A stretch of DNA of 64,000 nucleotides from Antedon mediterranea (Eukaryota > Echinodermata > Crinoidea > Comatulida > Antedonidae). The notes beneath the pieces are model-generated. The model saw only the letters and a list, made by a program, of their open reading frames with translations, searched no databases and was not told where the DNA came from. The stretch is taken from assembly GCF_964355755.1 (NCBI RefSeq), contig NC_092679.1, positions 11,150,932-11,214,931 on the forward strand. Direction: 5' to 3'. Numbering within the stretch: the stretch's first letter is position 1; every line of letters starts with the position of its first letter. Positions 4,141-64,000 of this stretch are shown one piece after another. Both the position numbers and the translations under genes were made by a program.

Positions 4141-6627
4141 CAGGGCTCGCAGAATCCTAAAATATTTGGTTGCCCTTCGGGCAAGTAGGTTTTAGATTTT
4201 GATTGCCCTCATCATTTTTTTACTTGCCCACTATTTTAACTTAATTTTAACGTTTTATACCGCGACTGCACTGCGAAAAAACGTCGGTGAAAAACGCCTA
4301 TGCTTAATACACTGTGGTGTTTTTTTCGATGGATTTTAAAGTAGTGAAAACAATTTTTCAAATTTTTTCAATTACACAGTGATGTAGGCCAATCTTTTAA
4401 GAACATTTTACAGTAATTTATTTTCTCATACGATCCTCCGTACAAGAGTTGCGATTGTTTAATTAACATGGTGTCCTGAAATCCCTTGAAAACGCTATGT
4501 TATTTCTGTTGGTTACGCTTCGTTGCACGGCATTGTTTGTCATCGATCGAAGATGTGTTCCGTTTCGTGAATGAAAAAGGCGTATTCACGTGGGTTTACT
4601 TTGGGAGCAAAAACGTTTTGCTTCTATTGTGCAATGAAATTCCGAAATCAAGCTATTTTGCGATATTTAAAATGTAGTAGCCTAGACATGGCACTAATTA
4701 TCTTACAATTATTTAATAGATATATCTAAAATATTGCCTATAGAAATGTAGGCCTCCTAGGCCTAAAAGTAGATTTCAGAAACTTTGGTTTTCTTAGGCT
4801 CTTTCAATTTACTCCGAAATGATTTAATGTTATTTTTATTAGGCCTGAGTGCTTTAATTTAGTAGTTTTTTTTGACAGTATATAAAAGGATGACGATGAC
4901 AAAAGTGTATTTCGACCGTGCCAACCCGATGTTGCCGTCATGAAGGCCCTAAAAAGATTTTTCCCACGTGAAATTGAAATGAATGCATGAAACGTACGCG
5001 AAACGTAAATAAACATTGAGAGAGGCCAATTCCTCCATGGAAATAAAATTAATTAATATATTACTCCATCCATGGCGAGAGAAAGTAAAAATACTTCTTC
5101 CAAGAAACCCTTCACAAGTTCTCCGCTTTTTGGGTTTAGCCGCTCTTATGCGGGAAATTGTAAGCCTCCTCTATCTGTTGTGCAAGGAGCTAGTAGTTGT
5201 CTCAGGCAGCGAGCCATTGAAATGTACGATTCCTACAACACGTAAATTGCTAGCCTAGAGAGCAGTGCGAGTCGCAACCGCTCTGAGAGTGCGAGGAGGA
5301 ATTACCTACTGAGGCGAACTGCATGCGTGAGTGATTTGAACAACTCACGTGACATCAACATCCAATCAGAAAACAGTATTCTGGCTAGCTGGCAGTTTCG
5401 TTGAGCGAAAAAAAATATCGCCGTCCGTCTCTCTCTACGTGACGTGAAACAATACGCATGCGTATAGCAAAAAAACTCACAGCAGCTGCAGCCGTACGTA
5501 GTAGGAGCACATGGGTACGGTGTGTGGTGGAGAGTGCGGGCTTGTGGAAGTTTACTTGTTGTTTCAGTAGAAGCTCGCACAGGTTGGATAAAAACAACCA
5601 TCTGCTCGCACAAGTTTGTGATTGAAAACAACACAAGGGAACTGTGCCGAATTGTGGTGAAAACCACGTGCTCCGCCAAGTTGGAGTTTTTGAAAGTTCA
5701 ACTCTCGGCGATACCCGAAGAAGTGTATTATTTTCAATGTTGATAATAAAAAATATACTGTAACTATTTAAGTATTCAATGTATTTATTAAATAAATTAT
5801 TAGGCCTATTAAATTTATATTCTGTAATATTTATAAAAAAAATGGTAGGCCTACTTGCCTGTGTTAAAAACATCGGCCGGTGCCTATTTGGCACAGACAA
5901 TTAAAATTACGTATCTATTATAATTTAATAATATACTGTATTTTCAATACAACTGTACATTTGAACAATAATTACAGTAATTCAGCAAATTATTTATTAC
6001 ACACAAAACACATAACATAAATGTAATTAAACATAGGCCTAATCTACTATCAGGCTGTAGGCCACATAATTAATACTAAGTAGTAGATTCAGATTTTATT
6101 ACCACCGTAAAATGATGTCGATAATTGAGAAAAACAAAAACATACTAGCCCCTATTTTATTTGGTTTATAGTATAACTAGGGAGTTGTTAATTAGAAACT
6201 CCCTGGTATAATAACTTCAAATAAGTTAAAAGCCGAGAGTTCAACGCTTCCTATTTCGCGATCAATGGATGCCGCAAGAGACCGCGTGCTATATGACAGA
6301 CCTAGAAACTCTATACGCAAACGACTTGATACGCCCGACTGCATAGAAACACATGTTTTGGCTCCTGGAGATAACGTTCCATACCACCGAATTCCGATCC
6401 ATACATTTACTTAACAAACACTACACTGGTCTCGACGTCAAGAGAATTCGTTCGTGCGCGACTATTATTTTCATTGTTACAGTTTTTCACAACCCCTGTA
6501 AAACATCGTGGACATTTTCGGTGATTTTAAGAGGTTGCCCGTCGGGACATGACATGTTAAATTTTAGTTGCCCGACGTATTTATTTGGTTGCCGCGGGAC
6601 GTCGGGCAAGCGATTCTGCGAGCCCTG
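4141..6627. mobile_element. CAGGG-ended DNA transposon (hAT-like, non-autonomous), inside gypsy LTR
   Basis: CAGGGCTCGCAGAATC at 4141 is the exact inverse of GATTCTGCGAGCCCTG at 6612-6627. CAGGG/CCCTG termini suggest hAT. Subterminal GTTGCCC/GGGCAA motifs occur at both ends (around 4170 and 6535-6610). The flanks share CGGTA (4136-4140 and 6628-6632), a possible 5-bp target duplication; hAT normally gives 8 bp, so the superfamily is uncertain. I see no convincing transposase inside the 2.5 kb, only AT-rich sequence and short chance frames. Confidence 0.68.
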
Positions 6628-14656: not shown

Positions 14657-15031
14657 ATGTGTGAAGACAGTGAAGATAAGGTGGTGAGCGTGGAAGACGA
14701 TGTAGATGTGATAGAGAACGTGGGAGATGAGGTAGAGAGCATAGAAGACGGTGAAGATAAGGTGGTGAGCGTGGAAGATGATGTAGATGTGATAGAGAAC
14801 GTGGGAGATGAAGTAGAGAGCATAAAAGACGGTGAAGATAAGGTGGTGAGCGTGGAAGACGATGTAGATGTGATAGAGAACGTGGGAGATGAGGTAGAGA
14901 GCATAAAAGACGTTGAAGATAAGGTGGTGAGCGTGGAAGACGATGTAGATGTGATAGAGAACGTGGGAGATGAGGTAGAGAGCATAGAAGACCAGGGGCG
15001 GACCAAATTTTGGCGTTCTAGCTCATTGTAA
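14657..15031 (+). CDS. Acidic 27-residue coding repeat (81 bp x 4)
   Basis: A 124-residue frame starts ATG at 14657. It holds four tandem 81-bp units beginning at 14672, 14753, 14834 and 14915, each coding close variants of EDKVVSVEDDVDVIENVGDE plus VESIKDG. The product is strongly acidic with heptad-like Val/Ile spacing. The complementary strand is also open (146 residues, Ser/Thr rich). The region could be a repeat expanded within an exon of the neighbouring gene or a non-coding minisatellite. Units are nearly identical, so expansion is recent. Confidence 0.45.
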   Translation: MCEDSEDKVVSVEDDVDVIENVGDEVESIEDGEDKVVSVEDDVDVIENVGDEVESIKDGEDKVVSVEDDVDVIENVGDEVESIKDVEDKVVSVEDDVDVIENVGDEVESIEDQGRTKFWRSSSL

Positions 15032-22728: not shown

Positions 22729-23867
22729 TTATTTGTCCATTATGAAATCATCAAAACGTTTGGGCACACGTCTATTTCGCTTTGGTCTGGTGATGACTAC
22801 CTCTTCCTTTTGAGGATCAGGTGTCCTCGGCGGAGTTTCGATAGGAGTTTCATCCACTTCCCCTTCAACATTAATATCTTCTTCATGTAATTGATTTAAT
22901 TGTCGGCGATTGCGTCTATACACTTGTCCGTTTTGCGTAGCGACCATATATATCTCGGGGTAACATGTTCAGATAACACTTTCGCGGGGACCCATTCTCG
23001 GCCTTTGTTGAGACGGACTATCTCGTTTCCTTTCAGTGATTGTAGCGTTCGCGTTCCACGATTGTAATATTCCGCCTGTTTGTCTTGTCTAACGATCAAC
23101 GAATTATGTGCGTCTGGAATCAGTGTAGGCTTAAGTTGCTCGCGTACGATAGGAATTCGTGTTCTAAGCCTTCTGTTCATCAGCAACTGTGCTGGAGATT
23201 TGCCGATACCTCCCAACGGCGCATCTCGATAAGCGAGTAAAGCTAAATGAAAGTCTCCGTGAAAGTCATCAGCGGCTTTCCTCAACAATTGCTTGACTGT
23301 CTGTATGCACCGTTCAGCTTGACCATTGCTTTGTGCATAGGTGGGACTCGATGTGATTAGTTCTATCCCCCATGATTTAGCGAACTCTTTCATTTCAAAA
23401 CTTGCGAAAGGCATGTTGTCGCTTACAAATGTCGCTGGAATGCCATGTCTCGCGAAAATCGTTTTTAGCCTGCCGATTACTTCTTTGGCAGTTTTGTTGC
23501 GTAGCGTGACGACTTCGGGATATTTTGAATAATAAAATAATATTACTAAGTGGTCATTTCCTCCAAAGTTGAAAATGTCTGCCCCAACTCTATAAAAGGG
23601 TATTTCAGGTATTTCGTGAGTTATCATTGGTTCGCGTTGATTTTTCCGTTTGTACTTTGCACATGTCGTACATCTTGATACCATGTCATGAATAGCATTG
23701 GTGATACCGGGCCAGTACAACAACTCTGTGGCTCTGGCCTTGGATTTCTCTATTCCTAAATGACCATCGTGAATGCGGTTAAGCATGAATTCTCGTTTGC
23801 TTTCTGGTACTATCAATTTCTTCCCAATAAACATTAGTCCCTCATGTTCATAAATTTCGTCACGCAT
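22729..23867 (-). pseudogene. pol: Ty3/gypsy integrase (copy 3)
   Basis: Reading downward from 23867: the HHCC zinc motif (HDGHLGIEKSK then CTTCAKYK), the core with GADIF (first Asp), FVSDNMPFASFEM (second Asp; canonical SDNG lost, here SDNM) and SNGQAERCIQTVK (Glu). The C-terminal region reads IVRLNKGREWVPAKVL. A frameshift near 22900-22950 leads into the basic tail ending NRRVPKRFDDFIMDK. About 320 residues remain uninterrupted, so this copy decayed recently. It normally inserts element cDNA into the genome. Confidence 0.9.
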
Positions 23868-23947
23868 CGGCCAAAATTGTCTTATCTTTACGCTGACTGA
23901 CTGACGTCGCTCAGGCCAGCCAATATGGCACTGTTTCGATAGTTCCT

Positions 23948-24388
23948 TTAGTGTCTCGTCCTCGTTAGTCGCTTGTTGTATTCCGTTATTCTAGCTTTAC
24001 TCATACTCAACAGCTCATGTACGGCATGTATACGATATTGTAGAATTTCAGGATCATTCGTGACAGTTTCCATCGGAACCGCTCTGCTCAGTGCGTCCGC
24101 GATATACATTTCACGACCTGGAACATATGTGACATTTATATCATATTTTAATAGTCGTAGCATCATCTGCTGTAGTCTGGGACTCGCCTTGTGAATTGGT
24201 TTCTTTGTAATTGACTCAAGAGGTTTGTGATCAGACTGGATCGTAACTGAACGTCCGTAGAAGACATAGTTGTTAAACCTTTCAAGTGAAAAACAAATAG
24301 TTAGCATTTCTTTTTCTATCTGAGAATAGTTCATTTCGGCTGACGTTAGTGATCGCGAACTATAGCGTAACGGGTGACCATCTTGCAT
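23948..24388 (-). pseudogene. pol: Ty3/gypsy RNase H (copy 3)
   Basis: The frame carries YSSRSLTSAEMNYSQIEKEM, FSLERFNNYVFYGR, IQSDHKPLESI and YVPGREMYIADALSRA, the standard gypsy RNase H series. The first catalytic region (DAS) falls in the frameshifted gap to the RT frame at about 24390-24420. Confidence 0.88.
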
Positions 24389-51049: not shown

Positions 51050-52110
51050 CGTTAATCACGGTGCACCGCGTTACACAGATACAATTTTGACACAGCCCCT
51101 AACAATGTGTACAATAACCCTAATCACTGTACTATATTATCTTGGTAAAAGTTCTTTGAGATATTTGGGATACACAAGATGCCATTACCCTTTATAAGCC
51201 TGTACCATCTTAGCATGGAGGTATAAAAAAGGAGATTCAACTAGCTAATAGAGATTAAAATGCTGTGTGCTATATGAAATATGACTGACTTCCTCGGACG
51301 CTGATTGGCTCGCTCAAATGAGTTAAAAAATCCGCCTTCCGCTCTGCCACGCAGGACTTCGCCTTTCATCGTTGTCAGTGCAGCCGGTCGTTTATACGCT
51401 TGTTACAAGGCCCCTTAGCATTTAAGTCGCCCCGAACATGTATTTTAAACACTATTTTAGTTGTTTTAGCTTCTAGAGAGAGGGCTTGTGGGGTCAGAGG
51501 TTAACTTATCCGAAACCATATTGAATTGAAACCATTAAAAAATCAAGTAATATTTACCAAAATAACCAGAAGTTTTTATGGTTTTTATATTATATATCGA
51601 TAACACGATAAGCTCGGAAAATGATTTTTTTTTGTAATAATTATTTAATAATTTCAATTTCAAACCGTGAAAATCCCGACCGTGTACACGCGTGTATATT
51701 TTCTCTACATGCATTGCAACATCGGGCTTTTTCTCGACGAGTCGCTTGTTGGTTCATCAAGTGTGACGTAATCAACAGGTTAGGAAGATAATGCTAGGGC
51801 TAGGTCTAGGCCCTAGAGTATCCTTCTTGTTTGATATTATAATTCGTGAACCTATTCAACATTGTTATTAATATAATTTATAGGCTAAATTATATTATAA
51901 TTAATAAAATGGTGAACACGTTTTAGTACGACAGAGTAGGATAGGCTTAGTAAGGCTACTAGGCCCGGGCCTACTAGCTAGGCCTACTAGAGTCTAGGCC
52001 TAGACTACCACTAGCTAGTTAATTAGTTATCCGCTTGGTAGATAACTCCTTGTTATTGTATTGGATCAATATTTTTTTTCTGTATTGTTCTTCTTTCTTT
52101 CTTGCTTTTT
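51050..52110. other. Non-coding sequence with TAGGCCTA motifs
   Basis: No coding frame. CTAGGCCT motifs cluster at 51806-51820 and 51960-52005. A T-rich stretch precedes the tandem duplication at 52.1 kb. Confidence 0.4.
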
Positions 52111-52736
52111 TGTGCATCTCGTTTCTCTAAAATGTGTAAACATAACATTTCATAACTTTGACAACATGTGGCCATTTACGTAAAGTTGTGCGCCTTTTAT
52201 TTTGAATGACGTCAGAGTTGCGCAACGTGACGTACGTGCGATTTTATGATTTTAAATGATTGATCATAGATTAAAAACCAAGCTTTATTTTTTTTTTTTA
52301 ACTTGGTGAAAATCTAAGTCATATCAAGGTCAAACTTTCTATGGATTAAAAATGGCATGTTTCACGAGCATTGAAAATTTCAAAATGCGCAAAATTAATT
52401 TCTAATCAACTTTCGACGCTTTTTGTGCATCTCGTTTCTCTAAAATGTGTAAACATAACATTTCATAACTTTGACAACATGTGGCCATTTACGTAAAGTT
52501 GTGCGCCTTTTATTTTGAATGACGTCAGAGTTGCGCAACGTGACGTACGTGCGATTTTATGATTTTAAATGATTGATCATAGATTAAAAACCAAGCTTTA
52601 TTTTTTTTTTTTAACTTGGTGAAAATCTAAGTCATATCAAGGTCAAACTTTCTATGGATTAAAAATGGCATGTTTCACGAGCATTGAAAATTTCAAAATG
52701 CGCAAAATTAATTTCTAATCAACTTTCGACGCTGAT
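52111..52736. repeat. 313-bp tandem duplication of an AT-rich repeat
   Basis: TGTGCATCTCGTTTCTCTAA starts at 52111 and again at 52424. The two units appear identical by eye across GACGTCAGAGTTGCGCAACG, the T10 run and the end AATCAACTTTCGACGCT. The unit belongs to a family with inverted, diverged copies near 57.2-57.55 kb and 9.2 kb. Confidence 0.9.
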
Positions 52737-52928: not shown

Positions 52929-55640
52929 ATGAAAAAGGTTAAAAAAGAATTTCCTGAAATTCTGACAGAAGATAATTCAGAATGTTTATTGACATGGATA
53001 TGGAAATCAGCAATTTGCTGTGGAAACACTGAGTTCATGCAACTTTGTCGCAAGCAATCACCATCAAACCTAGCAGTGTTTAATAGTATTTCTGGATCAA
53101 CAGTTGCAATGGAAGAGGACACAAATGGTGAAAGAACAATAAGGCACATGAACTGCTGTATATTTGTTGAGGGAAATCGCTGTGAAGTATGCACAATGTA
53201 TAGAACAACTTTAATGTCTAAAAGGTCAAGAATTAATGATCAAAAAGCAGTAGACATTAGTTCTCATGCACGAACTGGTCAGTTAAACAATGATCAGTTA
53301 AGGAAAAAGTTGATGTTGGTGTCAAATGACTAAGTTTTTCCTGACCTTAAAGAAAAAGTAAGGAAGTCATTTGAAGATGATTCTAGTCCACTGCAAGAAA
53401 CAATGTCTGAAGCTCTACAGAAACTGTGTCAGAACAATTTAAGGAAGGTTCTACACAAAGACTACTATGGGATGAACAAGTGGCTGCCAATAAATCATCT
53501 GCAACAGGTCGTCGTTGGTACCCAGCAATAATTCGTTTTTGCTTAGCGTTGCACATGAAGTCTACTGCAGCTTACCGTATTATTAGGAACTCTGGCTACT
53601 GGACCCTAAGGAACTACACACATTTTACTGATGCAAAGTCTGGTTTTAATCCTGATGTTATCCTGCGGATAAAGCATGATGTACATTTTAATGCATTACC
53701 TGATTTTAGTAAAATTGTTTCATTAAGTTTTGATGAAATGAAAATAAACGCAGGTCTTGTGTATTCTAGCAAATCGGGTAATCTTGTTGGATTCTCCAGT
53801 ATGGGATCAATGAACGAAGCCATGGACAATTTTGCAAGGGAGTTGGACTCTGACAAAAATAAACAACAAAAGGAAGCATCACACATGTTGTCTCTGATGG
53901 TTCGGGGCATGTTTATGCCTTTACATGACACATTCGCACATTTCCCCACTCACGGCTGCAAGAGTTATAATTTATATTGGATCATATGGAAAGCTGTGAC
54001 ATGGCTAGAGTATGCAGGATTCAGAGTTTGTGGTGCAAGTCCAAATCAAAAATTTTAAGGACAGCATGGAACATCTGTTTCTTCAGAAGTTGTCTTTTCA
54101 ACCAATAGTCCATATACGAAAAGGAATATCTATTTCATTTGCGACATTCCACACTTGTTAAAGACTAAAAGAAATAATCTCGAAAACTCTGGATTTAACT
54201 CAAAATCAAGAAACTTGCATGTGAGTTATACATTTTAATTTTTTTTTTTCATACCAGTTTTTACTAGTGTAAACACAATTTTCCCCCCACTTTATGCTAC
54301 AGTGGGAAGCTCTTCATTTATTTTTCTCTTTTTTTTTGCAGTTTAATCATAAAGATCTAAAGTGGAATCAGTTGCTCACCTTGGTAGAAGAAGATATTGG
54401 ATGTGGTAGTGGCCTAAGAAAACTCCACAAAATACGCCACAAGCATTTATACCTTACGCCAAGCTTACGGATGAAAGTTAAACTAGCTGTCCAGGTAATT
54501 TTAGTTTGTTTTTTTAGTTTTTAGCCATCTGAGATGCACTGCAATTTTAAATTGACTTCTTTCTTGTTGTCTAGGCAAATACATTTTTAAAAGTTGTTAT
54601 CATAGTTGAGAATCTGTTAGAATATAGAAGTGTGGATGAATCAAGATTAAAGGTACAGATTTGTTTTTCAAATTGTTATTAAAGAATTTCAGATAAATTA
54701 TCCTAATACACCTATTGAAAAAGGATCGTCAACACATAGTCAACCAAACATGAAGATCTGTTTACCCATGGAGTTATATTTTTATACCACCATGATTTAA
54801 CTGAAAAGTTCAGCCAAGATTTACACTTACCCCAGTGAATTTGGGGTATACACCTAAGTGTATCCTTGCCATTTGATTGGTTGATAAGGTATCATGTGAC
54901 ATGCATTTTTTCAATCCATCCTTGCATTCAGGTGGCATATTGAATATTTTATTCATGGAATGGGCTAGTCCATCTTTCAATGGTTACTCATGAATTCATT
55001 TTTTACTGTCTTTTAGTGGCTTGTAGATGGTTTCCTCGGCTTTCTTAATACATGGGAGAATCAGTGTTTGGAAACACCAAATACAACAGCAGCAGAAAAG
55101 AACAGGATGTGCCTGAGTCGTGAAACACTAAGAATAACAGGTTATTTTTTTTCTTTTCATTTATGTCTAGCCATAGATTGTTTGATAGGTTGCAAAAGCA
55201 CAATCTAATAAGTTCTTTATTTTTCAGTATATTAAAAAGTAAATGTTAACCAAGGATAAATCCAATGGGCTTGCGACCCCTGTCTTCTAGCCTGACACAT
55301 CAAATCCTGTAAAGTAAATGTCAATCTTAATTCCTAATAATTGTATTGTTAAAAACTATATTAAAGCAAATATTAATACAATAAATGCTTATTTGAAACT
55401 TACAAAGGAATTGCTTGCTACTGATGGTGTGGACTAAACCAAGATCCTATCGAGGAATACTTTAGCAAACAGAGAGGATGTGGAGGAAGAAATGAAAACC
55501 CAACAGTTCATCAATTCCAACATAACGCATTGACACTACAAGTTGCAGGAGCCAGAAGTGTAACTGGTTCAATCCACTCAAACACCAGGATAGTAGTACA
55601 GTTAACCCCATCGTCTTTTCCATCGTTTGTCACTCTATTC
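52929..55640 (+). pseudogene. P-superfamily (THAP9-like) transposase relic with introns
   Basis: Exon 1 (52929-54220): a Cys-pair region (CEVCTMYRTTLMSKRSR), then after a stop the RNase H-like part RFCLALHMKSTAAYRIIRNS, YWTLRNYTHFTDAKSGFNP, VSLSFDEMKINAGLVY (catalytic Asp) and GNLVGFSSMGSMNEAM, then ICDIPHLLKTKRN (second Asp). Exon 2 (54342-54494): LTLVEEDIGCGSGLRKL. Exon 3 (54575-54652). Exon 4 (55017-55140): ENQCLETPNTTAAEKNRMCL. Exon 5 (about 55395 on): NQDPIEEYFSKQRGCGGRNE then NPTVHQF (catalytic Glu region). Order and motifs match P-type transposases. Stops at 53331 and about 54056 and a frameshift near 55430 disable it. No terminal repeats were found. Confidence 0.75.
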
Positions 55641-56220: not shown

Positions 56221-59200
56221 CTTTTAACCACAAAAAAATGAGGGAAAAATCAAGCTGTATTGTCTGCACCCACGTCATTATTAATTATTGGCAAGTCAAT
56301 GCTATGATTATGCTGGTAAACACAACAGTAATAATATACAGAGATCAAGTAAGCAATCACTTAATCCTCCGATACAAAAGCGTTTGTTCAATAAATTTAT
56401 CTCTTATCTCTCCTCCTTATGAAATTTTAAACACTGTTTTGCAATCGTAATATCATTTACAATGTTTAATATTACAAATGTCACTTTTCTATTATTTCCA
56501 ATTACCATAATCCTACAGTCAAATGTAAACGAAATGTATAATTAATTGTCACAATATCTGCTCACAACTTGATTTCTGATTGAATAATTTGTGTGTGCTT
56601 GAAATTATTAACCGTTGTATTAGGTTCTTAACAACTAGTTTTTATTATCATGAGGTCCTAAAGCAAACAAAATTGTACATTTATGCACGATGACGTCATA
56701 AAAATTAAAATATTTTTAACTCATGCTAAAGATAGTTGATTGACCTAGACAATATCAAAATCAGGGTGAAAATGGAAAACGGATAAGTGGAGATGCGCTC
56801 TATTAAATGTGATGAGCTATGACGAAAGATACAAAAATCCTAAATTTCATATTCGCGTGGCCATACGATGACGTCACAATGTCCGGTTAGCCATATTAAT
56901 GCATGATCTGATATCTAAAACACATCAACTTCCAGAATATGTAATAAAAATAATTTTTACCGTTTAGTTTAGAAACTACGATTGTTTAAAAAAAGGCAAA
57001 ATTTTGACAAATTTTTGAAGTTTTTCATCAAAAAAGCGCTCAAATTATCATATTCTATGTCCTCATATGACGTAATTTGAAGTCGAAATTGTTTAAAAGT
57101 TGGTAAAATTACTAGAAAACGCTGGAAAAACATAAATCACTCGAAAAAATGACGTTTTTAACCCTACGTGTGGACCGCGCGCGTAAAAATTTGCGCACGT
57201 GTGGGAATTTTTGACATGCTCAAAATGACATGAAACGCGTAGAAAGTTGATTAGAAATTGATTTTTCCCATACTTCGTGTTAAACATGCCATTTTTAGTG
57301 CACAAAAAGTTAGCGCACGATATAAATTAGACTTTTGCTAAGTTTCAATTTAAATTGTTATATGCTTTTCGATCTATGTTAAATACGCAAAATTCATAAA
57401 ACGCGCGTAAGTCATGTTGCGCAACTCTGACGTCATTCAAAAATAGGAAAGCACAACTTCACATGATTGCCCATATGTTGACAAAGTTATAAAATCATAA
57501 TGTTAACTTTACACGTTTTAGAGATACGCTTTGCACAAAAATGACAGAAAGAAAGAAGAACTAGAATTTAATTCGTCACTTTGACGAATTATAGGTGATC
57601 ATTTTTATCATTTTACTGAAATTAATTTTTTTTTTATCGGAAAATGTTGATGTATGCCATCCTATTATACGCTTATAGTGCTGAGTTGTGCCTATTATAT
57701 GCCATATAATATGTACAGTATATATGTATATCTATATACAGTGTAGCATAGGTGAAATTACGGGACACACATCATGTTCTAATTTTTTGGTATGATGGAA
57801 TTATCAAAATAAACTCGAAGATGACAATTTCGAAAGATAATGAATTGAGCAAATAAATATAAGAATTGGAAGAGAATTTGGCACGTAGAAGCGCTGTGCG
57901 CGCTCTTTGAAATTTGTATAACTGTGACGAAAAAGATGAAAAAACTACTTTTTAACTTCAACTGGCCATATGTTAACTTCACAACATCCGATAGGCTTGA
58001 TTTTTATATGAATTCATATCTACATTTCATCAGCTTTCATAATAAATTATAATCATCAAGGTAACCTTCAATTCCGAAGAGCTGTATGATTTTCAAATTT
58101 ATGGCGAAGGTGAAATTACACGACCTACGTTATTCAAGTTTTTACGCGTGATGATGTCATCAAAATAAAAATAGTGGCAAGTCATGAGAAAGTTAATTAA
58201 TTGAGCAATCACATACTAACATTTTAGCGAAAATCGGGTACAAAATAACAGAGATGCGTTCTATTGAATGTGATAAAATATGACGAAAAAGAAAAAAAGC
58301 TTAATTTTAAATTCAAGTGGCCATTTGATGATGTGACAACATTTTGTACGTACAATGTGTACATGTATTCATATCTACAACTCAATGGCTTCCAGAATAA
58401 GTTAAGAAAATTGGGGGTCATCGTGCATTCTGAAGAATTATTTTCATTTTAAAAATGCCTTATTTTTCACCATTTTCAACACTTTGTTGCAATTAATTTG
58501 CTCATTTTGAACCTGCTCGTATAGCGTTATTTTATATCGGAACTGACTCAAATTTGGTGAATGTACTAAAGATGGTGAGTAGAATGCGATTTGTAAAAAT
58601 AAATCGTATTTTTAAAAAAATATTTTTTTGCGCAGTAATTTTTTGAAACACGCAAATGGCTTGAAATGACACTCTATATCGGCCTACCAAACAGCAATAC
58701 TGCTGGAATCTCCAGCAAAATGCAATTTCCACGAACACAATGTGTAGTGGCCTTTCGTACCTTCTTAAGATGTACACAAGCAATCCAAACAGTCAGAAAT
58801 TTATTCTGAGCATGTTGAGAAATATATCCACAAAAAAAAATATGCTGACAGCCGGTGGTAAATTGTGCAGTTAATATTCAAAATCGGTTAAGCCATTAAA
58901 ATATCCTGAAATATCCATATCAAGGGTTTTGCAACTGAACTCTAGGCAAGGGCACAGTTTGTCTACACACTCAGATAGGCAGTTTTTTGGAGGCCCTGTG
59001 TGAAAGACCACAGAAAGACAACATGAAATTCGCATACATAACCAGACATTTAACATTTATAGTTATTGTGACCATTTAGATTACAGAAAATATAGTCATA
59101 ATTGATAATACTGAGTTTCAATTTTTTTCTAAGATGAAACTTAGGTGACATTTAGTTCTGATTTAGGAAATGCTACTTACATTAAACATGAAACTGCACA

Positions 59201-59310: not shown

Positions 59311-62300
59311 GACAATTTGAAGTGTGCATCCCTATTGCACATGATACTATCACTAAATCTAGAAAATCTAAGCATCAACAGCAATTTTGTAAGAACTATT
59401 GAAAAAGTGAGTAAAATAATTTGCATTAACTTCAATTAGCTATTTGTTCATTGTTTCATAAAAACAAAGTAGCAATGCTTTCTATGAGTAGACACATTTT
59501 ATGTTATTTTTTCTGTTTCAAAAGGATGAAATTATACTACTTTGAAGGTAATTTAATTACTGCCATAGCTGTTTATCTTTATTAGCAAATCCTTATTAGT
59601 GGAACAATTTAAAATAAATAAGTAGGCCTAAATGTTTACTTTTATCTCAACTTTTATTCACAGATTACAAAATACAAGCAATGCGGAAAAGTACGCAAGG
59701 GTGCTAAAATGCTTATTGAAAAATTGCTGACTGTTATAGATAGAGAACAAGAGGAAATGGAAGAAAATGAGAGAGCCTTGGGTAAGTCTATAACATTAAC
59801 AACAAAACTCAACTGTACAGGTTGTGTTAAAATACTTCTATAATGGAACATTCTTACATTGGAAAGTGATAGTACTGTAAATGTAACTTTTTCTCTGAGG
59901 TTTTTGTCTCCCATTTATTCATTCGATTGCGGCACTTATTTATTTGTGTTCAGGCAGTCTATAATTTCAGTATTTGGCAAATAATAATGTTTGAAATTAA
60001 TTAGTTGTTATAATTAATTTATTAACATTTTATTGTTGTTGTTCATTAACAGATGAAGATAGAGAACAAGAGGAAATGGAAGAAAATGAGAGAGCCTGGG
60101 GTAAGTCTTCTATAACATTAAGAACAAAACTCAACTGTACAGGTTTTGTGAAAATACTTGTATAATGGAACATTCTTACATTGGAAAGTGATAGTACTGT
60201 AAATGTAACTTTTTCTCTAAGGTTTTTGTCTCCCATTTATTCATTCGATTGCAGCACTTATTTATTTGGGTTCAGGCAGTCAATAATTTCAGTATTTGGC
60301 ATGTTTGAAATTAATTAGTTATTATAATTAATTTATTAACATTTTATTGTTGTTGTTCATCAACAGATGAAGATAGAGAACAAGAGGAAATGGAAGAAAA
60401 TGAGAGCGCCTGGGGTAAGTCTATAACATTAACAACAAAACTCAACTGTACAGGTTGTGTTAAAATACTTCTATAAAAGGAACATTCTTACATTGGAAAG
60501 TGATAGTACTGTAAATGTAACTTTTTCTCTGAGGTTTTTGTCTGGCACTTATTCATTCGATTGCGGCACTTATTTATTTGGGTTCAGGCAGTCTATAATT
60601 TCAGTATTTGGCAAATAATAATGTTTGAAATTAATTAGTTGTTTTAAATAATTTATTAACATTTTATTGTTGTTGTTCATCAACAGATGAAGATAGAGAA
60701 CAAGAGGAAATGGAAGAAAATGAGAGCGCCTGGGGTAAGTCTATAACATTACCAACAAAACTCAACTGTACAGGTTGTGTTAAAATACTTCTATAATGGA
60801 ACATTCTTACATTGGAAAGCGATAGTACTGTAGATGTAACTTTTTCTCTGAGGTTTTTGTCTCCCATTTATTCATTCGATTGCGGCACTTATTTATTTGT
60901 GTTCAGGCAGTCTATAATTTCAGTATTTGGCAAATAATAATGTTTGAAATTAATTAGTTGTTATAATTAATTTATTAACATTTTATTGTTGTTCTTGATC
61001 AACAGATGAAGATAGAGAACAAGAGGAAGTGGAAGAAAATGAGAGCGCCTGGGGTAAGTCTATAACATTAACAACAAAACTCAACTGTACAGGTTGTGTT
61101 AAAATACTTCTATAATGGAACATTCTTACATTGGAAAGTGATAGTACTGTAAATGTAACTTTTTCTCTAAGGTTTTTGTCTCCCATTTATTCATTCGATT
61201 GCGGCACTTATTTATTTGTGTTCAGGCAGTCTATAATTTCAGTATTTGGCAAATAATAATGTTTGAAATTAATTAGTTGTTATAATTAATTTATTAACAT
61301 TTTATTGTTGTTGTTCATCAACAGATAAAGATAGAGAACAAGAGGAAGTGGAAGAAAATGAGAGAGCCTGGGGTAAGTCTATAACATTAACAACAAAACT
61401 CAACTGTACAGGTTGTGTTAAAATACTTCTATAAAAGGAACATTCTTACATTGGAAAGTGATAGTACTGTAAATGTAACTTTTTCTCTGAGGTTTTTGTC
61501 TGGCACTTATTCATTCGATTGCGGCACTTATTTATTTGGGTTCAGGCAGTCTATAATTTCAGTATTTGGCAAATAATAATGTTTGAAATTAATTAGTTGT
61601 TTTAAATAATTTATTAACATTTTATTGTTGTTGTTCATCAACAGATGAAGATAGAGAACAAGAGGAAATGGAAGAAAATGAGAGCGCCTGGGGTAAGTCT
61701 ATAACATTAACAACAAAACTCAACTGTACAGGTTGTGTTAAAATACTTCTATAATGGAGCATTCTTACATTGGAAAGTGATAGTACTGTAGATGTAACTT
61801 TTTCTCTGAGGTTTTTGTCTCCCACTTATTCATTCGATTGTGGCACTTATTTATTTGTGTTCAGGCAGTCTATAATTTCAGTATTTGGCAAATAATAATG
61901 CTTGGAATTAATTAGTTGTTATAATTAATTTATTAAAATTTTATTGTTGTTGTTTATCAACAGATAAAGATAGAGAACAAGAGGAAGTGGAAGAAAATGA
62001 GAGAGCCTTGGGTAAGTCTATAACATTAACAACAAAACTCAACTGTACAGGTTGTGTTAAAATACTTCTATAATGGAACATTCTTACATTGGAAAGTGAT
62101 AGTACTGTAGATGTAACTTTTTCTCTGAGGTTTTTGTCTCCCATTTATTCATTCGATTGCGGCACTTATTTATTTTCGTTCAGGCAGTCTATAATTTCAG
62201 TATTTGGCAAATAATAATGTTTGAAATTAATTAGATGTTATAATTAATTTATTAACATTTTATTGTTGTTGTTCATCAACAGATAAAGATAGAGAACAAG

Positions 62301-62825
62301 AGGAAGTGGAAGAAAATGAGAGACCCTTGGGTAAGTCTATAACATTAACAACAAAACTCAACTGTACAGGTTTTGTTAAAATACTTCTATAATAGAACAT
62401 TCTTACATTGGAAAGTGATAGTACTGTAAATGTAACTTTTTCTCTGAGGTTTTTGTCTCCCACTTATTCATTCGATTGCGGCACTTATTTATTTGTGTTC
62501 AGGCAGTCTATAATTTCAGTATTTGGCAAATAATAATGCTTGAAATTAATTAGTTGTTATAATTAATTTATTAAAATTTTATTGTTGTTGTTTATCAACA
62601 GATAAAGATAGAGAACAAGAGGAAGTGGAAGAAAATGAGAGAGCCTTGGGTAAGTCTATAACATTAACAACAAAACTCAACTGTACAGGTTGTGTTAAAA
62701 TACTTCTATAAATGAACGTTTCATCTTATATTGGAAAGTAATTTGTATATTATAGCACAATGGGAAAACATCGAAGCACGGCTGATTGTAAAATTTTTTG
62801 TCTGGCTAGGCCTAGATGAAGCATA
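59311..62825 (+). CDS. LEDGF/HRP2-type integrase-binding-domain-like gene with amplified acidic exon
   Basis: Exon a, 59311-59406 (phase 0): DNLKCASLLHMILSLNLENL then FVRTIEK. Exon b, 59664-59781: ITKYKQCGKVRKGAKMLIEK then LLTVIDREQEEMEENERAL. Nine 48-nt exons follow (60053-60100, 60367-60414, 60687-60734, 61006-61053, 61325-61372, 61645-61692, 61964-62011, 62283-62330, 62602-62649), each coding a variant of DEDREQEEMEENESAW. A possible last exon (about 62754-62825) ends with LGLDEA and a stop. Every joint is GT/AG and phase 1 after exon b. Exons a and b resemble the five-helix domain of LEDGF/HRP2 that binds partner proteins: note V-x-T-I-x-K-I and basic-aromatic-K. No PWWP exon lies in the window. 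Related TFIIS-N folds (IWS1, MED26) are alternatives. Confidence 0.6.
59725..62720. repeat. ~319-bp tandem array, each unit one 48-nt exon plus intron
   Basis: Spacing between exon starts is 314, 320, 319, 319, 320, 319, 319 and 319 bp. Introns are as conserved as exons (CATTCTTACATTGGAAAG, TTATTCATTCGATTG, TTCAGTATTTGGCA). Variants shared by the units starting at 60367 and 61325 (ATAAAAGGAAC; TCTGGCACTT) and by their next neighbours (GTAGATGTAAC) show a three-unit block was duplicated as a whole. Confidence 0.93.
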
Positions 62826-63401: not shown

Positions 63402-64000
63402 ATATATTTTTCAAATACGAAAAAGTCATATAAAAAGCCATATCGCTATTGCATTTTCTGCAAAGCCTCCTTTTCAAAACTAAGAAATCATATTGAAAAT
63501 AAACATAAAATCATTGGGCGAGTAAAGGACGCAATGAACCTACCAAAAAAAGAGCGTGATGCTACATTTGAAATATTCAGAATTGAAGGTATAATGGAGT
63601 TTAATAAGAAGGCAATAAAGGAAAATCCCAAAAATCCATCTGTGCAACGAGAAAGAAAAAGAACATGCCCAGGCAAGATTGTTGTCTGCAATGTTTGCGG
63701 AATGTTCATAGATATGAAATATCAAAGACGACATGAACAAAATCACAACATGAAATCAGATGCGGCAATTACAGTGATCACAACACCAATTAGCACACTG
63801 ACGTATGTGGATGAGTTGGACACACGGTTCGTATCTGAAGTTTTATCACGTTTTAGATGTGGTACAATACGAGATAGCTGTCTAAATGACAAGCTTCTAA
63901 TTAAAGTAGGCCATGCAATGTGGCAAAGGGTTAAGAGTCGAGCGGACAAGGCGGTGGAGGTGCGGAGGCAAGTCATGACTAACATGCGAAGGTTGGCTGC
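63402..64000 (+). CDS. Zinc-finger exon of unknown gene, runs off the window
   Basis: A frame with no stop covers the last 599 nt and continues past the edge. It codes YCIFCKASFSKLRNHIENKH (C-x2-C-x9-H-x4-H), the linker LPKKERDATFEIFRIEGIME, then CNVCGMFIDMKYQRRHEQNH (C-x2-C-x11-H-x3-H) and later TRFVSEVLSRFRCGTIRDSC. Two C2H2-like fingers around a KxERxxxxxxxRxxG segment resemble the N-terminal part of a widespread uncharacterised invertebrate and fish family, sometimes linked to tyrosine-recombinase-like proteins. The acceptor is uncertain (AG at 63424-63425 is one choice). Its phase does not match the last acidic exon directly. Confidence 0.55.
   Translation, partial: MYFSNTKKSYKKPYRYCIFCKASFSKLRNHIENKHKIIGRVKDAMNLPKKERDATFEIFRIEGIMEFNKKAIKENPKNPSVQRERKRTCPGKIVVCNVCGMFIDMKYQRRHEQNHNMKSDAAITVITTPISTLTYVDELDTRFVSEVLSRFRCGTIRDSCLNDKLLIKVGHAMWQRVKSRADKAVEVRRQVMTNMRRLA

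Follow-up and report, generated by a model that had tools for sequence, protein, structure and literature searches.

Tandem arrays of symmetric exons are already known, exon 2 of SmPoMuc being an example, and the array that we report here is another case. It lies directly downstream of exons resembling the integrase-binding domain (IBD) of LEDGF and HRP2. In the parts of the literature drawn on here, tandem duplication of exons is amply documented as a general phenomenon (PMC9013439, PMC9741552), and in exon 2 of SmPoMuc from Schistosoma mansoni a 27-bp in-frame exon forms tandem repeats together with its flanking introns (PMC2576457). These repeats measure about 1 kb each, occur in 1 to about 20 copies and are >93% identical; ectopic recombination was inferred (PMC2576457). 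The schistosome micro-exon genes (MEGs) have very small symmetric exons that permit alternative splicing, some of these genes show a dN/dS above 1, and VAL-6 is a possible composite with micro-exons (PMC4350168). The disordered C-terminal part of human LEDGF/p75 contains a negatively charged helix that staples onto the IBD or folds back over it (PMC10854676). Finally, animal genes derived from Cryptons are known: WOC/ZMYM, KCTD1 and QRICH1 (PMC3212892).

The window analysed here is a 64-kb stretch of the Antedon mediterranea genome (C10:11150932-11214931; 354 Mb in 18 contigs), and other loci are named by contig (C2, C4 and so on). As in SmPoMuc, a short in-frame exon and its introns are tandemly repeated in the genome, which would lengthen a protein repeat. 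Unlike SmPoMuc, a mucin multigene family with known transcripts, this locus has 48-nt acidic exons in 319-bp units beside an IBD-like neighbour and is known here from sequence alone. It shares very small symmetric exons with the MEGs and VAL-6, but MEG products are secreted, whereas the domain next to the array would, judged solely by resemblance, be nuclear, and the array consists of recent, nearly identical exon copies. The order of an IBD-like domain and then an acidic C-terminal part recalls LEDGF/p75 and HRP2 (PSIP1, HDGFL2); in contrast to these, no PWWP match is listed on the contig, the domain scores under the Pfam cut-off and the acidic part is a recent exon array rather than a single helix. 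The neighbouring open reading frame (ORF) resembles Cryptons in having a weak tyrosine-recombinase (phage-integrase) match in its second part, but this match (PF00589) reaches 15.2 bits against a cut-off of 27.1 bits and any kinship to Cryptons is putative. A partial literature survey with few subscription papers yielded no such array in an IBD gene, which does not establish its absence from print.

Structure of the exon array

A 319-bp tandem repeat of 9.3 copies with 95% matches is detected by TRF (Table 1), its last unit fading into diverged sequence. Nine free exons of exactly 48 nt are present, one per unit of about 319 bp, with a start-to-start spacing of 314-320 bp. The preliminary description had counted ten such exons. 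The array and its ten acidic segments are real, but only nine are free exons and the tenth forms the 3' end of exon c. The donor starts with GTAAG in 10/10 acidic segments and the acceptor ends with AACAG in 9/9 free exons, so that the core splice signals are intact in all copies. Moreover, all nine free exons are in phase 1-1 and contain no stop, and each is repeated head to tail with its flanking intron. Since phase at both ends, splice sites and frame are kept in every copy, copies can be gained or skipped without a frameshift, which bears out the earlier proposal on this point.

When exons b and c (59311-59406, 59664-59781) are joined to the nine cassettes, the predicted phase contains 0 stops, against 8 and 32 in the other two. 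Each free exon would add 16 residues, of which 8-9 are acidic and 1-3 basic, and not 16 acidic residues as had been stated. From the fused segment onward the predicted tail counts 158 residues (84 acidic, 20 basic). The coiled coil that had been suggested for it is not favoured by the 16-residue period.

That the unit is itself a dispersed repeat or transposon is disfavoured: a genome search with the 319-bp unit, which scored only the best candidates and skipped very common words, gave ten matches on C10, four pieces on C2 and no others. Two other tandem repeats were observed in the window. A 313-bp unit at 52107-52733 is present in two perfect (100%) tandem copies and is either very recent or an assembly duplicate. 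At 14663-14992 an 81-bp coding minisatellite (4.1 copies) gives a 124-codon open frame of acidic repeats (EDKVVSVEDDVDVIENVGDEVESI), for which no Pfam match was found at E 0.01.

Table 1. Coordinates of the exons, the array and the adjoining recombinase-like frame. Positions refer to the window; L001 is the stretch continuing downstream of it.
Feature	Position	Strand	Remarks
Tentative exon a, LFYIGTDSNLVNVLKM	58525..58574	+	Phase 0 donor ATG/GTGAGT; would give first part of IBD-like domain
Exon b, 96 nt, phase 0-0, IBD-like domain, DNLKCASLLHMILSLNLENLSINSNFVRTIEK	59311..59406	+	Borders match IBD gene at C2:16.131 Mb
Exon c, 118 nt, phase 0-1, IBD-like end fused to first acidic segment	59664..59781	+	Acidic segment from about 59736
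Tandem array, nine introns of 266-272 bp between exons	59738..62711	+	TRF; fading, weaker similarity as far as 62742
Cassette 1, DEDREQEEMEENERAW	60053..60100	+	
Cassette 2, DEDREQEEMEENESAW	60367..60414	+	
Cassette 3, DEDREQEEMEENESAW	60687..60734	+	
Cassette 4, DEDREQEEVEENESAW	61006..61053	+	
Cassette 5, DKDREQEEVEENERAW	61325..61372	+	
Cassette 6, DEDREQEEMEENESAW	61645..61692	+	
Cassette 7, DKDREQEEVEENERAL	61964..62011	+	
Cassette 8, DKDREQEEVEENERPL	62283..62330	+	
Cassette 9, DKDREQEEVEENERAL	62602..62649	+	
Start of tyrosine-recombinase-like ORF, zinc-finger-like motifs	63402..64000, into L001 to about 1017	+	Frame change inside

The IBD-like exons and the recombinase-like frame

The domain upstream of the array appears to be IBD-like. 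Its sole Pfam match at E 10 or less is LEDGF (PF11467; 15.8 bits, E 0.011), which stays below the cut-off of 26.3. This score was obtained for the string with exon a and the acidic end, and drops to 13.5 bits without both; the acceptor of exon a is weak (9/15 pyrimidines). Exon c has an open frame, the acceptor TTATTCACAG and the donor GTAAGTC. The best PF11467 locus of the genome is C2:16131059. Its domain shares 19 identical columns (33%) with the IBD-like domain on C10, and both borders of exon b lie at the same intron positions as in the corresponding C2 exon, in phase 0. Compared with PDB chains, the IBD-like sequence alone matches LEDGF with 13 bits (E about 1), outranked by LRRC8 channel chains and one other protein, which look like chance matches. 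A strong PDB match of a two-row profile (E 8e-9) was discarded, being due to the second row, the other IBD gene. The 11 PWWP matches listed genome-wide at E 1 or less include none on C10, although weak matches split by introns can escape such a search. Since the score falls short of the Pfam cut-off and the contig has no listed PWWP match, we speak of an IBD-like domain and keep the gene out of the LEDGF/HRP2 family. No start, terminal exon or stop of the array-bearing gene was found.

At the local stop frequency of 0.083, the 71 codons of exons b and c with the acidic end would be open by chance with P 0.002, and the 57 codons of the IBD-like domain alone with P about 0.007 (arithmetic from the same frequency). 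Since the exons were picked for being open, this gives no more than a rough indication of long-standing selection on the domain. A protein search of the genome for further IBD-like exons lists only the array locus, and the DNA search adds one piece, a decayed copy of the 5' part of exon c at C4:23830444, which contains a stop.

Several other features were observed around these genes. In the other IBD gene a 218-bp stretch is duplicated in tandem with 98% matches (L008, C2:16126000-16135999, at 5785-6221); the duplication takes in the start of the IBD exon and has one truncated copy. Upstream of the IBD-like exons, a transposase-like ORF with a TNP-like RNase H domain (PF21787, 54.2 bits) lies at 53411-54055. 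A retroelement integrase ORF is found on the minus strand at 22896-23987 (Integrase_H2C2 53.9 bits; rve 30.5 bits, below its cut-off).

Downstream of the array, the zinc-finger-like motifs of the recombinase-like ORF were read from the sequence, their Pfam zinc-finger scores being under the cut-offs. The two parts of the ORF are in different frames, so this copy is broken. An open relative of 554 codons, 37% identical and with no Pfam match at E 0.01, lies at C8:6088853. Behind the C10 ORF, phase-1 mini-exons occur at positions 1306, 1522 and 2645 of L001; the tail mini-exons, all in phase 1, read GDDPENLEMNNFT (A), DETFEEAEENEENSDIT (A2) and DDQDHDYT (C). They come from a scan behind the array that returned nine rows on C10, of which three were taken as tail exons (one with two alternative starts). 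The same scan on C8 gave five rows, none resembling the C10 tail exons. No IBD-like domain was recovered beside the recombinase relatives, the best tblastn hit in the examined stretches of C8, C5, C3 and C2 having E 2.3.

Separately, two recombinase-like copies, on C8 (L009 7201-9415) and C5 (L011), are 91-99% identical in DNA over this stretch; small acidic exons precede the C8 copy. The C5 copy aligns as pieces that lie in different frames, and its upstream sequence is partly repeated; the pair looks like the outcome of a recent move or duplication. A dispersed repeat family (1558 first-look candidates, of which 40 were scored) occupies L001:1663-2462, between two of the phase-1 mini-exons.

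Growth and origin of the array

No two of the nine full units are the same: the 36 pairs are separated by 3 to 18 substitutions, on average 11.6. Divergence is greatest in the first free-cassette unit (mean 14.6 differences), which has its own 3-nt and 8-nt indels, and lowest in the fourth unit and the fused one (8.8 each). Signs of enlargement by unequal exchange are seen in a perfect tract: the 344 bp of 60408-60751 recur without a difference at 61366-61709, 958 bp or three units further on. Across the array, lag 3 is also the closest spacing, with a mean of 8.7 differences against 11.6 for all pairs (P = 0.0056 with shuffled unit order, 0.11 once the choice among lags 1-6 is allowed for). 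It is mainly the perfect tract that documents a recent displacement by three units. Concerning the three-unit block duplication put forward in the preliminary description, copying across three units holds for about one unit, the length of the perfect tract, whereas duplication of the whole block is plausible only.

To trace the origin of the cassette, we aligned it with 60-bp flanks to the mini-exons and expressed the scores as z values against 300 shuffles. By this comparison the cassette is related to two other mini-exons, tail exon A2 (z 10.6, 0/300 shuffles) and mini-exon B of two decayed copies on C2 (z 14.8 and 14.6, 0/300 each). No kinship was detected with tail exons A and C or a fourth candidate, D (z -0.1, 0.2 and -0.6). 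Other pairs scored lower (A2-B 5.1 and 3.8; A-B 3.3 and 3.2). Against the cassette, a control block taken from the other IBD gene scored z 4.9 (1/300 shuffles), and values up to about 5 are therefore not trusted in such AT-rich DNA; the values for A2 and B against the cassette are well above this level. Exon identities do not exceed those of the flanks, with 27/44 in the exon and 36/45 and 29/42 in the flanks for the first C2 copy, 23/37 and 36/45 and 27/42 for the second, and 31/45 and 31/43 and 33/42 for A2.

The C2 copies have decayed: one has an in-phase stop in exon A, and exon B of the other is 37 nt long. On C2, a recombinase remnant is directly preceded by two pieces of the repeat intron, which suggests that two or more units were probably already present when the C10 and C2 copies separated.

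Selection and competing explanations

Purifying selection on the cassettes was sought by comparing exon and intron variation within the array, and was not found. Variable columns in the unit alignment amount to 5/48 in the exon and 29/275 in the intron (Fisher P = 1), and mean pairwise divergence is 4.7% for exons against 3.5% for introns. The five exon changes (E/K, M/V, R/S, A/P and W/L, read from the exons) are all non-synonymous. With exons as variable as introns and five out of five changes altering the protein, no constraint is visible. Under neutrality, five non-synonymous changes out of five have P 0.23, so positive selection is not indicated by them either. The exons are unlikely to be under a three-fold constraint (five or more variable columns, P 0.029), but a two-fold constraint is not disfavoured (P 0.11). 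Neutral exons at such divergence would often keep their frame, with a probability of 0.78 for no stop in five changes and of 0.59 for no indel (based on three intron indels counted in the unit alignment); the kept frame is therefore weak evidence. The power of these tests is limited by recent homogenisation and the few sites. Overall, preservation of the exons by selection is unsupported, as they diverge as fast as the introns, and yet the frame is preserved.

The explanation that we favour, though with no better than even confidence, is a young exon array that grew by unequal exchange and would give the IBD-like domain an acidic tail of variable length immediately behind it. Unequal exchange would have multiplied a symmetric phase-1 mini-exon, together with its intron and 3' splice site, until nine free copies lay a short way behind two IBD-like exons, one further copy being fused to the second of these. 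This mini-exon is related to the small acidic phase-1 exons found behind the neighbouring tyrosine-recombinase-like sequence and its decayed copies. The cassettes would be spliced into one mRNA, and the order of events given here is likewise a proposal. In the predicted product the IBD-like domain would run directly into the 158-residue tail, whose length would be set by genomic copy number and exon skipping. The tail would be a mostly disordered or weakly helical polyanion; most likely it would act by tuning the IBD-like surface or by binding basic partners.

A neutral relic is the strongest rival, because constraint is missing and the surroundings are decayed, and we regard it as a serious if lesser possibility. 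The locus would then combine duplicated gene pieces with a broken recombinase gene in a decaying chimera that makes no functional protein; its exons would be open only because the copies are young, and the array would grow and shrink like any tandem repeat. The equal variation of exon and intron and the five amino-acid changes agree with this, as do the broken frame of the adjoining ORF and the decay of related copies on C2 (the stop and the 37-nt exon B) and C4 (the stop in exon c). Even so, the IBD-like part is open and still one third identical to its C2 counterpart, which suggests constraint over much of its history, and the core splice signals have remained intact in every copy.

It is unlikely, in our judgement, that the cassettes are chiefly acidic mini-exons of the neighbouring tyrosine-recombinase-like family and the IBD-like exons an accidental upstream fusion. 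Transcripts may in that case pass from the array to the phase-1 tail exons, skipping the broken recombinase exon. Whereas the kinship of the cassette to A2 and B, the shared phase 1 of the tail exons and the intron pieces beside the C2 remnant would fit such a family, exon c fuses an acidic segment in frame to the IBD-like domain and tail exons A, C and D are unrelated to the cassette. In addition, the recombinase exon has, by eye, no good phase-1 acceptor before its zinc-finger-like motif, and upstream of the relative on C8 the acidic exons seem to be in phase 0. The phases speak against direct splicing from the array to the recombinase ORF.

That the assembler inflated or collapsed the copy number is very improbable: tandem repeats of such size are hard for short reads, but 36/36 unit pairs differ and the first free-cassette unit has its own indels, whereas assembler duplication would tend toward identical units.

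Returning to the favoured reading of a length-variable acidic tail, a more far-reaching version of it seems doubtful to us. The acidic segment of each cassette might fold back on the IBD-like domain, as the single helix of LEDGF does, so that the array would work as an electrostatic rheostat in which copy number and skipping set partner access stepwise. Unequal exchange would then drive its evolution, and the substitutions would represent diversification rather than neglect.

Summarizing, the array offers a clean and young case of a protein tail built from whole exons, with copies that are still only a few bases apart. It also calls for caution: when an exon array is young, intact frames and splice sites do not in themselves count as evidence of selection. 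The array adjoins a domain that, in a relative, depends on an acidic tail for its behaviour. If it is transcribed, the locus would provide a direct test of whether exon copy number tunes a chromatin adaptor.
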